Assembly (NCBI GenBank): GCA_003132445.1
Contig: PKXU01000101.1
Span: 1-59,988, forward strand
Reading direction: 5' to 3'
Origin: Acidobacteriaceae bacterium
GTDB taxonomy: Bacteria > Acidobacteriota > Terriglobia > Terriglobales > Acidobacteriaceae
DNA length: 59,988 nt
Position 1 is the stretch's first letter, and each line of letters opens with the position of its first letter. Under the pieces are notes generated by a model. The model searched no databases. It saw nothing but the letters and a program-made list of their open reading frames with translations, and was not told the origin of the DNA. Shown here piece by piece: positions 54,344 through 58,489 of this stretch. Both the position numbers and the translations under genes were made by a program.

Positions 54344-54418
54344 CCATGCCTAATCAGAACAGTGTGGCTGGGAGCGACGCACACGGCGGCGTGATTGCAA
54401 TCACAGCGCCGGGCGTAC
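54344..54418 (+). repeat. 75-bp direct repeat, copy 1 (upstream of the TonB-dependent receptor)
   Basis: 75 bases matching 58189-58263 with only two differences (T/A at the eighth codon and A/G at the 24th codon of the enclosed frame). It contains a perfect 14-bp palindrome, GTGATTGCAATCAC (54391-54404), resembling a CRP/FNR half-site pair (GTGA N6 TCAC). Confidence 0.95.
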
Positions 54419-54435
54419 CTCTGCCGGGATTATGA
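54346..54435 (+). CDS. Candidate 29-residue peptide gene within the 75-bp repeat, copy 1
   Basis: An ATG follows GAGGACAGTTCC, giving a plausible ribosome-binding site 9 bases away. The frame reads MPNQNSVAGSDAHGGV..., then PLPGL and a stop. The first 24 codons are shared with the second copy at 58191, and both nucleotide differences between the copies are synonymous third-position changes (Ala GCT/GCA, Val GTA/GTG). This supports translation but rests on only two substitutions. The peptide has no membrane helix or recognised family. The alternative is that the repeat is purely regulatory. Confidence 0.35.
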   Translation: MPNQNSVAGSDAHGGVIAITAPGVPLPGL

Positions 54436-54456
54436 AAATGAAATTCAATTTCATTT
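54436..54456 (+). promoter_or_regulatory. Perfect 7-1-7 inverted repeat upstream of the receptor gene (Fur-family-like)
   Basis: TGAAATT C AATTTCA, extended by AAA/TTT on its flanks to 21 bases of perfect symmetry, lies 61 bases before the receptor ATG. The 7-1-7 layout and most bases match the Fur consensus TGATAAT N ATTATCA. TTAGAC (54455-54460) and TATACG (54480-54485) downstream are a weak promoter candidate. Confidence 0.5.
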
Positions 54457-54517
54457 AGACCGGTGATGAGATTGCGAACTATACGAAAGCAGTCCCCTGG
54501 GAAAGGCAAGCGCTAAT

Positions 54518-57500
54518 ATGCGGGGCATCAAGACTGTCATGTCCACCCTGTTGCTGAGAGTTGGGGCATGTCTAATGCTGGCGGTGTGGCCAATCGCGGT
54601 TTGGGCGGCAGCCAACGGCAGCATCGTGGGAACGTTGACCGATCCGACCGGTGCGGTGGTTTCTGGCGCGACGATTACGCTGGTGAATACCGCTCTGCGA
54701 TCGGAATATAAGACGATTTCGAATGGACAAGGCTTTTATTCGTTCCCCAATCTTCCGGTTGGACACTACGGCCTGACCATTGCCGCACCTGGGTTCAGGA
54801 CTCAGATGAAAGCCGACGTGGCAGTCGATACCGACGCGGCGCTCCGAGTCGACGGCGTGCTCGAACTGGAACGGCGATCGGAGAGCGTAACCGTGGAAGC
54901 CGGCGGAACGGCGACCGAGGCGCAAGTGGAAACGGCGGCGACGCACTTGGGTGAACTTGTGACTGCGACGCAGATGACGGCGCTTCCTCTAAACGGCCGA
55001 AGTTATACCGACCTCCTGCCGATCCAGCCCGGAGTCGCTCCAGTGTCTACGCTGTTACCCAATTCCGTGATTATGGCGGGAGTGACCGGAACGATTTCGC
55101 CGTCAGGCGATTTGAATCCAGGGAATCTATCGATTGCGGGGCAGCGAGAATCGTCGAACGGGTTTCTGGTGGACGGCATTGATGTGCAGGAACATATGAA
55201 TGGCGGCACGTCGATTATCGCGAACCTCGATTCGATTGAAGAGTTTCGCGTGCTCACCAGTAATTTCGATCCGGAGTATGGGAATTATAACGGCGGCATG
55301 GTCACCGTGATCACCAAGTCGGGAAGCGATTCCTTCCACGGCAACGCATTTGAATTTTTGCGCAATACGAATCTGGATGCCCGCGGTTACTTTGACCCTA
55401 CCCGGCCTGCGTTTCGACAAAATCAATTCGGCGGCACGCTGGGTGGTCCGCTCAAACATCAGAAAGTTTATTTCTTTACAGATTATCAGGGGACAGCGAC
55501 CGACCAGGGACTGGAAACGGGATTGATTTCAGTTCCATCCCAACCAGAACGCACGGGCAACCTTACCGACCTGGCGAGTTCATTAACGGGGCGAGTGAGC
55601 GGAACCTCGCTGGCGGAGTTGCTTTCTCAGAAACTGGGTTACGGAGTGTCGGCCGGAGAAGCTTATTACACGCCCGGATGTGCAGCCAGTTCGTCCTGTG
55701 TATTTCCGAACGCGATGATTCCGCGGAGCGCATGGTCGTCGCCGGCCGTGGATCTGCTGCCATACATTCCTTCACCCAACAACGGCGCCGATCAATTCTC
55801 GACTTCGGCCTACGCACAGACCGTGCGGGATGATAAGACTGCCGGCAGGATCGATGCTAATAGCCGCTGGGGGCAAACGACCGCATATTATTTCTTCGAT
55901 CATTACCGACTTGATAATCCATATCCGCAACAACAAGGAGGCGCCAGCATACCTGGCTTCGACGCGCTGACTTACGGATCGGCGCAACTGGTGAGCATCG
56001 GCGATACCAAAGCTTTCGGTACCGGGACCGTCAACGAATTTCATGTGGGCTATCTGCGCAACGCGAATGTAATTGGACAGCCTCGTGGAGGCTTGGGGAT
56101 CAGCTTGGCAGCGCAAGGCTTCGTGAGCAGTTCGGGGACGCCGGGATTCACGGTTCAAGCGCCGCAATTTGAAGGCGTGGAGAATATTGTTTTCCCGTCG
56201 TTCGTCATGGGAGTTCCGATTACCAACGAAACTCAAATCAATAACACCGGATATTTGAGCGACACGGTCGCAAAGGTATTGGGAACGCACACTCTAAAGT
56301 TGGGCACCCAATTTCATGCCGATCAGGTGAACGAGCATCCGAACGCTACCTTTAACGGCACCTTCAACATTGATGGAACCGAAACTGGCTCTGCCTTCGC
56401 CGATTTCCTGATCGGCGTGCCCAGCAATTTCACGCAATCGTCAGGACAGCCTTTTTATCTGCGCAGTCGATATGAAGGCTTGTTTGCGCAGGACAGTTGG
56501 CGGGCGCGAAGGGATTTGACCATCAACGCCGGACTGCGCTGGGACTACATCATGCCTTTCTGGGAGAAGTACAACCAGATCCAGACCATCATTCCCGGAA
56601 GGCAATCGGTGCTCTATCCGGGAGCGCCGCCGGGGCTGGTGGTACCCGGCGATCCTGGAATTCCGAGCACGATTTCGCCCGCGAAGGGTAGAAATTTTGC
56701 CCCGCGCATGGGAGTCGCGTACTCCCCGGAGTTTGATCGCGGAGTTCTGAGAGCGCTTTTCGGAGACGGTGGGAAGAGCAGCGTACGGGCCAGTTATGGA
56801 ATTTTCTATACGGCGTTTCCAGGGCTTTCAACTGGGGTTATGTATGCCGTGCCACCATTCGGTTACACCTACCTCAGTCCCCAGTTGCCTTTATTGGCGA
56901 CGCCCTTCGTCAATGCAGGTGACGGAGGGCAAAATGCGAATCCGTTTCCCTTTGCCTTTCCACCTCACAACGTTTCAGTGAAGAATCCCGATACGGCATT
57001 CGATTGGGCGAACGTACCCCGCATTGCCGGCGACCCTTACTTTTATTACCGCAATACCGTTCCCTACACGGAAAATTACATGCTGTCGTTCGAACGGCAG
57101 ATCGCGACGAACACGCTGCTGACCGTGAGCTACGCGGGGAATGAGGGCCATCACCTGCTCGGGGTGGTGTCGAGTAATCCTGCGGATCAGGCGCTTTGCC
57201 TCAGCCTGAGCCAGCCCAGTGAGGTGGCGCCCGGCAGCCCAACCTGCGGACCTTTCGCCGAAGATGCCGTCATCACCAGCAGAGCCGGGCAGGTCTATCG
57301 CGGAACGCGAGTTGGGTTGGGGCCAAGTTATGGAGAAGTGACCGCTCAAAAGACAATTGCGAATTCGAGTTATAACGCTCTGGAAACAAATCTGCGCTAC
57401 GTGGGGAAGCGGTCGGATTTCTTGCTGGGCTATACCTACGGCAAATCGCTTGACCTAGGTTCGAATATAGGCGAACAGCTGAATCCCCTGAACCTGGCGG

Positions 57501-58090
57501 CAACCCGCGCGATTTCGGCCTGGGATATGAGACACAACTTTGTTGCGAGCTATAACCTCGGATTGCCGTTTGATTTGCTTTTGAAGCGTTCGGACCGCTG
57601 GACCAGCGGTTGGAGCATTGCGGGCACCACTCGTTTCAGCACCGGTTTTCCCGTGACCCTGTATGACGACTCCGACAATTCGCTGCTGGGAACGTTGGGC
57701 AACGGCATCAACAACTCACTCCTCGATACACCGGCCTATCACGCGGCGCCCCTCGATATCAATACCAATCCCAGGAATGGTCGACCGGAGTTTAACAATT
57801 CACCGGCCGCATTTACGACCGAGACGCTCGGCGAGTTGGGAAATGTGCCGCGCCGATTTTTCTATGGTCCGGGAATCGAGAACTTTGACATGACCCTCAC
57901 CAAGCTGGTGAAAGTCACCGAATCGAAAGCGCTTGAATTCCGTCTGGAAGCATTCAACGTGTTCAATCACGCCCAGTTTTATGGGCCCGGGTCCGTGGAC
58001 GGCGAAGTCAATAACGATCCACATTTTGGACAGGTCATCGGCGCGGCCTCCCCGCGCCTGATCCAGCTTGCAGCGAAATTCAACTTCTAA
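54518..58090 (+). CDS. Oar-like TonB-dependent receptor with N-terminal carboxypeptidase-regulatory domain
   Basis: The 1190-residue outer-membrane protein has a signal peptide (TLLLRVGACLMLAVWPIAVW). A carboxypeptidase-regulatory-like beta-sandwich follows (about 33-115), with SIVGTLTDPTGAVVSGATIT, NGQGFYSFPNLPVGHYGLTI and APGFRTQ. The plug region is about 130-290 (LNGRSYTDLLPIQPGVAPVS, FLVDGIDVQEHM, FRVLTSNFDPEYGNYNGGMV). The barrel continues to a terminal RLIQLAAKFNF. This is the expanded TonB-receptor group of Acidobacteria, thought to import plant or microbial polymers' oligomers or metal complexes; substrate unknown. It is flanked by the two 75-bp repeat copies and has a perfect inverted repeat upstream. 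Confidence 0.92.
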   Translation: MRGIKTVMSTLLLRVGACLMLAVWPIAVWAAANGSIVGTLTDPTGAVVSGATITLVNTALRSEYKTISNGQGFYSFPNLPVGHYGLTIAAPGFRTQMKADVAVDTDAALRVDGVLELERRSESVTVEAGGTATEAQVETAATHLGELVTATQMTALPLNGRSYTDLLPIQPGVAPVSTLLPNSVIMAGVTGTISPSGDLNPGNLSIAGQRESSNGFLVDGIDVQEHMNGGTSIIANLDSIEEFRVLTSNFDPEYGNYNGGMVTVITKSGSDSFHGNAFEFLRNTNLDARGYFDPTRPAFRQNQFGGTLGGPLKHQKVYFFTDYQGTATDQGLETGLISVPSQPERTGNLTDLASSLTGRVSGTSLAELLSQKLGYGVSAGEAYYTPGCAASSSCVFPNAMIPRSAWSSPAVDLLPYIPSPNNGADQFSTSAYAQTVRDDKTAGRIDANSRWGQTTAYYFFDHYRLDNPYPQQQGGASIPGFDALTYGSAQLVSIGDTKAFGTGTVNEFHVGYLRNANVIGQPRGGLGISLAAQGFVSSSGTPGFTVQAPQFEGVENIVFPSFVMGVPITNETQINNTGYLSDTVAKVLGTHTLKLGTQFHADQVNEHPNATFNGTFNIDGTETGSAFADFLIGVPSNFTQSSGQPFYLRSRYEGLFAQDSWRARRDLTINAGLRWDYIMPFWEKYNQIQTIIPGRQSVLYPGAPPGLVVPGDPGIPSTISPAKGRNFAPRMGVAYSPEFDRGVLRALFGDGGKSSVRASYGIFYTAFPGLSTGVMYAVPPFGYTYLSPQLPLLATPFVNAGDGGQNANPFPFAFPPHNVSVKNPDTAFDWANVPRIAGDPYFYYRNTVPYTENYMLSFERQIATNTLLTVSYAGNEGHHLLGVVSSNPADQALCLSLSQPSEVAPGSPTCGPFAEDAVITSRAGQVYRGTRVGLGPSYGEVTAQKTIANSSYNALETNLRYVGKRSDFLLGYTYGKSLDLGSNIGEQLNPLNLAATRAISAWDMRHNFVASYNLGLPFDLLLKRSDRWTSGWSIAGTTRFSTGFPVTLYDDSDNSLLGTLGNGINNSLLDTPAYHAAPLDINTNPRNGRPEFNNSPAAFTTETLGELGNVPRRFFYGPGIENFDMTLTKLVKVTESKALEFRLEAFNVFNHAQFYGPGSVDGEVNNDPHFGQVIGAASPRLIQLAAKFNF

Positions 58091-58188
58091 GTCTTCCTGG
58101 GCCGGGTTTTCTCCCGGGTCTGGAGCCGGTATCTGTCTCTGGTGGGAACGCTGGTCGAAGTGAAGAAGTCGCGTACCACATTCCCATC
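58091..58188. other. Spacer with weak hairpin after the receptor gene
   Basis: CCGGGTTTTCTCCCGG forms a 5-bp stem 16 bases after the stop codon but has no T-tract. No gene is visible before the second 75-bp repeat. Confidence 0.35.
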
Positions 58189-58263
58189 CCATGCCTAATC
58201 AGAACAGTGTGGCAGGGAGCGACGCACACGGCGGCGTGATTGCAATCACAGCGCCGGGCGTGC
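58189..58263 (+). repeat. 75-bp direct repeat, copy 2 (between the receptor and the decaheme cytochrome)
   Basis: Same sequence as 54344-54418 with two differences. It includes the palindrome GTGATTGCAATCAC at 58236-58249, 240 bases before the cytochrome start codon. The bases on either side of the two copies are unrelated, so the similarity ends sharply. Confidence 0.95.
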
Positions 58264-58286
58264 GTATGATCAATATTGAGCAGTGA
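58191..58286 (+). CDS. Candidate 31-residue peptide gene within the 75-bp repeat, copy 2
   Basis: The frame shares its first 24 codons with copy 1 (MPNQNSVAGSDAHGGV...) and ends RMINIEQ-stop. Upstream GAAGTGAAGAAG is purine-rich but further away than in copy 1, so translation is less well supported. The differing last residues of the two peptides (PLPGL versus RMINIEQ) arise exactly where the nucleotide similarity stops. Confidence 0.3.
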   Translation: MPNQNSVAGSDAHGGVIAITAPGVRMINIEQ

Positions 58287-58356
58287 AGCTTTTCCATTTC
58301 GGGCAAACTGGGTCCTTAAATCAGTATTGAACAATGAATCCCATTTCGAGCAGACT
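58270..58356 (+). repeat. Tandem duplicate containing TCAATATTGA palindromes upstream of the cytochrome
   Basis: A unit beginning with TCAATATTGA (58270-58279) recurs as TCAGTATTGA (58321-58330). In each, similar sequence follows: GA(G/A)CA(G/A)TGAA, CCATTTCG and (G/A)GCA(A/G)ACT. The spacing is 51 bases. The first palindrome is perfect and the second has one change. Confidence 0.65.
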
Positions 58357-58489
58357 CTGTCCTTTAGTGCATCGCTTCCATGAGGCGAGCATTGATTTCG
58401 GAAAACAGGTAGCCGACCATCACTTTGGTGTTATTCGAATTTGCTTTGCCAGAGCACTGCCGCTCGGCGGCGATTCAGGGAGCGCAGTA

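Follow-up and report, generated by a model that had tools for sequence, protein, structure and literature searches.

The 75-bp repeat described here is probably a duplicated promoter segment through which a single predicted activator of the Crp/Fnr type would control two neighboring genes, one for a TonB-dependent receptor and one for a decaheme cytochrome. It was found in an uncultured soil Acidobacteriaceae bacterium (GTDB lineage Bacteria; Acidobacteriota; Terriglobia; Terriglobales; Acidobacteriaceae), in assembly GCA_003132445.1 (5.12 Mb, 87% complete), on the forward strand of contig PKXU01000101.1. The window, meaning the whole stretch of DNA analyzed, is 59,988 nt long, and its relevant features are collected in Table 1. 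We suggest that a dimer of a Crp/Fnr paralogue with a RETVSR-type helix would bind the palindrome within the repeat, about 41.5 bp before the transcription start, and recruit RNA polymerase, that Fur would repress the receptor gene when iron is plentiful, and that the cytochrome gene may have gained its copy via short segmental copying from the receptor promoter.

Table 1. Positions of the repeat copies, genes, and predicted regulatory elements in the window.
Feature	Position	Strand	Remark
Repeat copy 1	54344..54418	+	5' of the TonB-dependent receptor gene
Open frame in copy 1, 29 codons	54346..54435	+	unsupported as a gene
Crp-type palindrome GTGATTGCAATCAC, predicted operator, copy 1	54391..54404		same site class in 5 receptor homologues
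Predicted -10 hexamer GATTAT	54428..54433	+	23 bp after copy 1 palindrome; predicted start ~54440
Fur-box-like palindrome TGAAAATGAAATTCAATTTCA, receptor promoter	54433..54453		over the predicted start
TonB-dependent (Oar-like) receptor gene, 1190 aa	54518..58090	+	PF13620 and PF25183
Repeat copy 2	58189..58263	+	5' of the decaheme cytochrome gene
Open frame in copy 2, 31 codons	58191..58286	+	unsupported as a gene
Crp-type palindrome GTGATTGCAATCAC, predicted operator, copy 2	58236..58249		254 bp before the cytochrome start
Second palindrome TGATCAATATTGAGCA	58267..58282		overlaps the predicted copy 2 -10; may be read by another regulator
Predicted -10 hexamer AATATT	58272..58277	+	22 bp after copy 2 palindrome; predicted start ~58284
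DmsE-family decaheme c-type cytochrome gene, 315 aa	58490..59437	+	TIGR03508 above cut-off, 10 CXXCH

A preliminary description of this DNA had reported a near-identical 75-bp element on both sides of the receptor gene, set in unrelated DNA, with each copy opening a frame of 29 or 31 codons and holding the palindrome GTGATTGCAATCAC. All of this was borne out: the copies are identical at 73 of 75 bases (95% over 80 bases), their flanks are unrelated, the palindrome is present in both, and the open reading frame listing contains both frames. The identity begins 2 bases 5' of an ATG, and the copies differ at repeat position 26 (T/A) and position 74 (A/G). As positions 74, 76, and 78 all differ, the end of the repeat is frayed, leaving position 26 as the sole internal substitution. 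BLAST of copy 1 against its own assembly returned two places only at E <= 0.001 (4.4e-33 and 1.1e-30). When 200 genomes were searched with the DNA, this one counted, 168 produced a match at E up to 1, every one short or of poor quality, and the best-scoring match among the 199 relatives covered 27 of the 75 bases. Several of the matches in relatives (L009, L012, L018, L020) were centered on the palindrome.

A mobile repeat (a MITE, REP, or attachment site) would likewise leave near-identical sequence in two places with unrelated flanks, but the assembly holds two copies rather than a dispersed set, the best-scoring match in 199 relatives is the 27-base one, and a search of 72,556 plasmid records found no match, so that this origin is barely credible; the plasmid search also led us to reject a plasmid origin of the repeat. 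Two further candidates were set aside. An RNA element was rejected on an Rfam search of the window, which gave one tRNA only, and a longer shared motif 5' of the palindrome, CACGGCGG, was dropped, being present in 3 of 199 relatives against about 1–2 by chance on a rough, uncomputed estimate.

The preliminary description had also offered a duplicated small-peptide gene linked to the receptor and an electron-transfer operon, and had noted that both substitutions are synonymous. This holds for the single internal change and fails for the second, which lies at the ragged repeat end. Moreover, because roughly 25% of the single-base changes possible within the frame's first 72 bases would be synonymous, one synonymous change carries no weight as evidence for a peptide. 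A 29-codon frame is ordinary in the window: 925 of its 1811 ATGs open at least 29 codons (real genes included), as do 49 of the 109 ATGs outside stop-to-stop frames of at least 150 codons. A peptide search in 100 relatives yielded four weak partial matches only, in three genomes at 46–59% identity, and read in frame these have no peptide in common; a degenerate pattern covering the peptide's first half had 0 matches in genome_contigs (where the source genome is possibly absent), so neither the 100 relatives nor that scan gave any sign of peptide conservation. A Pfam search of the open frame gave no match, and the 29-codon sequence is absent upstream of receptor homologues L121–L124, L127, and L129, so that receptor homologues retain the Crp-type site but lack this peptide. 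Relative to the predicted transcription starts, each frame terminates either upstream or no more than 2 bases away. The position of the ATG just inside the repeat, the synonymous internal change, and a Shine-Dalgarno-like GAGGA before the ATG of copy 1 are what a peptide gene could claim, but copy 2 has no such ribosome-binding sequence, and given the lack of homologues in the 100 relatives and in that scan, the commonness of such frames, and where these two end, we consider a peptide gene highly improbable.

The palindrome itself has the form GTGA-N6-TCAC and is perfect in both copies; the Crp consensus is TGTGA-N6-TCACA. Allowing up to 2 mismatches, GTGATTGCAATCAC has 2 matches in the window, both of them the copies, with 0.32 expected. 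Across the source genome GTGATN4ATCAC occurs 29 times, against 2 for the reversed pattern, with 10 of the 29 falling within an ORF that ranks among the five longest of its stretch and 19 not.

The product of the cytochrome gene scores 255.9 bits against TIGR03508 (cut-off 192.2), and 80 related DmsE-family loci were fetched for comparison, of which 79 entered the site count, L228 being left out as it has no upstream DNA. Within 400 bp upstream, 46 of the 79 carry GTGA-N6-TCAC, with 67 sites in all, and 33 do not; these loci share ancestry, so the counts among them are not independent. Fifty dinucleotide shuffles of the same upstream DNA gave a mean of 0.54 sites and a maximum of 2, 11 other half-site arrangements gave 0–1 each, and spacers of 2–11 other than 6 gave 0–4 each. 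GTGAT or GTGAC halves dominate over GTGAA among the listed sites, and in many of the related genes the palindrome lies at -226 to -254 relative to the cytochrome start, a range that includes the distance seen here. The earlier suggestion of a shared regulatory cassette is supported, although not for the 75 bases as such, what recurs elsewhere being the palindrome and its distance to a -10-like hexamer. Similarly, the proposed link to DmsE-type cytochromes holds for the site and not for the 75-bp element, which was seen here only.

Class II activators bind at sites centered near -41.5. TANNNT is found 22–23 bp downstream of 36 of the 67 cytochrome-locus sites (16 at spacing 22 and 20 at spacing 23) and at every other spacing from 8 to 33 in 0–2 of the 67, which in these relatives is the predicted layout of a class II activator. 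The -10 elements of the two copies in Table 1 were placed by this spacing rule, taken from the relatives; they fit NANNNT only and are weaker than the relatives' TANNNT, and NANNNT is a loose criterion that is also raised at spacing 18 (14/67) and spacing 17 (9/67). Among the 58 site directions of the source genome as a whole, TANNNT occurs at 22 bp in 3 and at 23 bp in none.

The receptor promoter was compared across 27 usable loci of 30 (L125 and L141, with upstream DNA too short, and L145 were left out). Six of the 27, namely the promoter studied here and those of L122, L123, L124, L126, and L130, have a Crp-type site within 400 bp, and the same six match the Fur consensus at 14–15 of 19 positions; among the other 21, none has a Crp-type site and the Fur-consensus score never exceeds 12. 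The box in the window matches at 14 of 19 positions, a score reached by 3 of the 149 400-bp blocks of the window. It shares a stretch of 30 identical bases with L122, and in the source genome, L122, L123, and L124 the stretch ATTATGAAAATG begins 23–24 bp after the Crp-type site. The source genome contains three exact occurrences of the Fur-like pattern: in the receptor promoter, at an FTR1 gene, and at a fur-family gene. The second lies upstream of the FTR1 iron permease gene, where a GTGATTCAAATCAC site is also found (L231, G000:C96:8151-8242), and the third is beside the fur-family gene (L232, G000:C102:41764).

A cNMP-binding domain is encoded at 17 places in the source genome, 16 of them over cut-off. 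Three of these paralogues combine NCxxC...FC near the start with a RETVSR or RETVTR helix, and RETV is common to the helix of the candidates and to the best-matching Crp/Fnr structures; the corresponding helix of E. coli CRP is RETVGR. The paralogue genes on C97 (L235, G000:C97:79703-80416) and C141 have the site, on C141 within the upstream part of the open frame, while the third, on C87, has none in its stretch. In a set of 29 homologues of the regulator, from 30 loci with this genome counted and the partial L256 left out, GTGA-N6-TCAC lies within 400 bp of the gene's own start in 26 (shuffles: mean 0.2, largest 1), and because so many have the site before their own gene, the family appears to control itself and to pair with this site. 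All NCBIfam matches of the family fall far below cut-off. All 29 homologues have cysteines at positions 13, 16, 25, and 64, and it is a reasonable idea that the candidate may be an iron-sulfur sensor. The likely regulators of the site are thus those Crp/Fnr paralogues that combine a RETVSR-type helix with the four invariant cysteines.

The palindrome might instead be read by another regulator, such as Rex, whose operators also contain GTGA-N6-TCAC, or by a different Crp/Fnr paralogue, perhaps as a repressor. The 17 cNMP-binding-domain places leave room for this, as does the second palindrome, which overlaps the -10 of copy 2. We find it improbable nonetheless, as the listed sites mostly have GTGAT or GTGAC halves and not GTGAA, TANNNT stands at a fixed spacing that suits activation, and the enrichment of sites before the regulators' own genes points to the RETVSR family.

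The second palindrome has relatives of its own. TGATCAATATTGAGCA-like sequences precede the cytochrome gene in L150, L151 (twice), L153, and L154, against a background of 0.015 per 600 bp, and in the source genome a single-mismatch copy of TGATCAATATTGAGCA immediately precedes the gene of another Crp/Fnr paralogue, whose helix is TTRSRV (G000:C191:76620). The palindrome TGNTCANTATTGANCA is present at 58267-58282 and about 58320-58333 in the window, upstream of the closest cytochrome relatives (L150, L151, L153, L154), which have no Crp-type site within 400 bp, and also directly before that TTRSRV-helix paralogue. It is possibly the operator of a second Crp/Fnr subfamily, and, as a lead, relatives without the Crp-type site may use the TTRSRV-helix paralogue instead. 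By eye, two similar stretches of ~50 bp stand in tandem in the cytochrome leader (58270-58319 and 58320-58366).

With an activator reading both copies as the preferred account, the order in which the two genes acquired the segment can be considered. In a tree of 72 cytochromes (71 related proteins and the one encoded here; pieces L215, L219, L220, L222, L224, L227, and L228, and two more by length filters, were left out), 11 changes of site label are needed. The cytochrome groups beside L150–L154 and L156, with L155 and L157 near by; the root is arbitrary and the fork nearest this protein is weakly resolved (support 89/95). None of these eight closest relatives has the site within 400 bp, the upstream DNA available for L156 being 312 bp long, and L152 has GTGA-N6-TCAC at 569 bp upstream. 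A short BLAST of the cytochrome leader against the upstream DNA of nine close relatives returned only the repeat in the window. Since the closest cytochrome relatives are without the site and the receptor site is common to homologues, the segment before the cytochrome gene appears to have been grafted there recently from the receptor promoter, and the simplest history would be an older receptor promoter segment followed by placement of a copy before the cytochrome. Copying in the reverse direction or repeated loss of the site in relatives are possible histories as well, loss because of the arbitrary root, the weak fork, and the distant site in L152.

A different account would make copy 2 the scar of a rearrangement that brought the receptor next to the cytochrome, with only the receptor copy working as a promoter. 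The two copies sit exactly on either side of the receptor gene, and in the 80 related loci, which cover up to 6 kb upstream and in some cases less, no close homologue of the receptor lies beside the cytochrome, L159 alone having a receptor-like sequence there (25–32% identity, other strand). In addition, 47 bp 5' of the palindrome are common to both copies, and the operator by itself does not account for them; the -10 candidate at copy 2 is also weak. Set against these points, the palindrome of copy 2 stands near the position that it has in many related cytochrome genes and is followed at the class II distance by a NANNNT hexamer, and we regard the scar as an unlikely explanation.

Two observations concern the related loci and the end of the window. 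Contigs labeled Betaproteobacteria (L201) and Spartobacteria (L219) encode cytochromes of the same acidobacterial DmsE-type family, that of L219 with 85% identity over 162 residues, and misbinning or transfer are both possible. An outer-membrane protein gene follows the cytochrome, and two N bases at L088:1990-1991, 1–2 bases beyond the end of the window, break it into two frames; the split is likely an assembly gap, because the counterpart in L152 is a single frame of 886 codons.

Acidobacteriota are abundant in peat and soil and have been proposed to be iron reducers there from their decaheme cytochromes, which were noted in Arctic peat (PMC3669403). A search of the literature by title, with most subscription journals outside its coverage, returned nothing on the control of such cytochrome genes in the phylum, which appears to be little described. 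The repeat is most likely a duplicated Crp-type promoter segment, an element of a familiar kind in a phylum from which little about such elements has been described. Starting from it, one reaches a predicted operator, a promoter layout, and a candidate regulator, all testable in cultivated strains, and named strains carrying the site include Granulicella sp. L46 (L190) and Occallatibacter savannae AB23 (L214). The locus may, in addition, be a recent instance in which segmental copying supplied a gene with its operator. More speculatively, and as a tentative proposal, the outer-membrane electron conduit and part of the iron uptake of Acidobacteriota might be run by an undescribed type of regulator, an FNR-like iron-sulfur sensor that has four cysteines and recognizes CRP-type operators, with genes joining the regulon by copied-in promoter segments and this window holding one fresh graft.

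Among known systems, the class II Crp promoters of the E. coli type are the closest in form, sharing GTGA-N6-TCAC and, in the relatives, a TANNNT 22–23 bp on that puts the center near -41.5, whereas the predicted -10 hexamers in the window are weak. The candidate regulator differs from CRP in that four cysteines, placed close to the N terminus and within the first half of the chain, are invariant, a feature known from FNR and not known from CRP. It resembles the FNR/FnrL oxygen sensors in these conserved cysteines and in a Crp/Fnr fold predicted by sequence, but has a RETVSR helix and a GTGA-N6-TCAC site, the FNR site being TTGAT-N4-ATCAA. Fur-repressed promoters of TonB-dependent receptors resemble the receptor promoter in the AT-rich palindrome over the predicted start, with its agreement to the Fur consensus; here, unlike there, a Crp-type site lies 23–24 bp before the predicted Fur box. 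In Shewanella oneidensis, one study describes an upstream CRP site for omcA and a sequence related to it for mtrC, centered at -61.5 and -60.5 (class I) (PMC4417206). In that system, and by prediction in the present one, a Crp-type regulator controls genes of an electron conduit across the outer membrane with a decaheme cytochrome of the MtrA/DmsE type among its parts (PMC4417206); compared with that system, the spacing predicted here is class II, the phylum is another, and the operator segment is duplicated next door.
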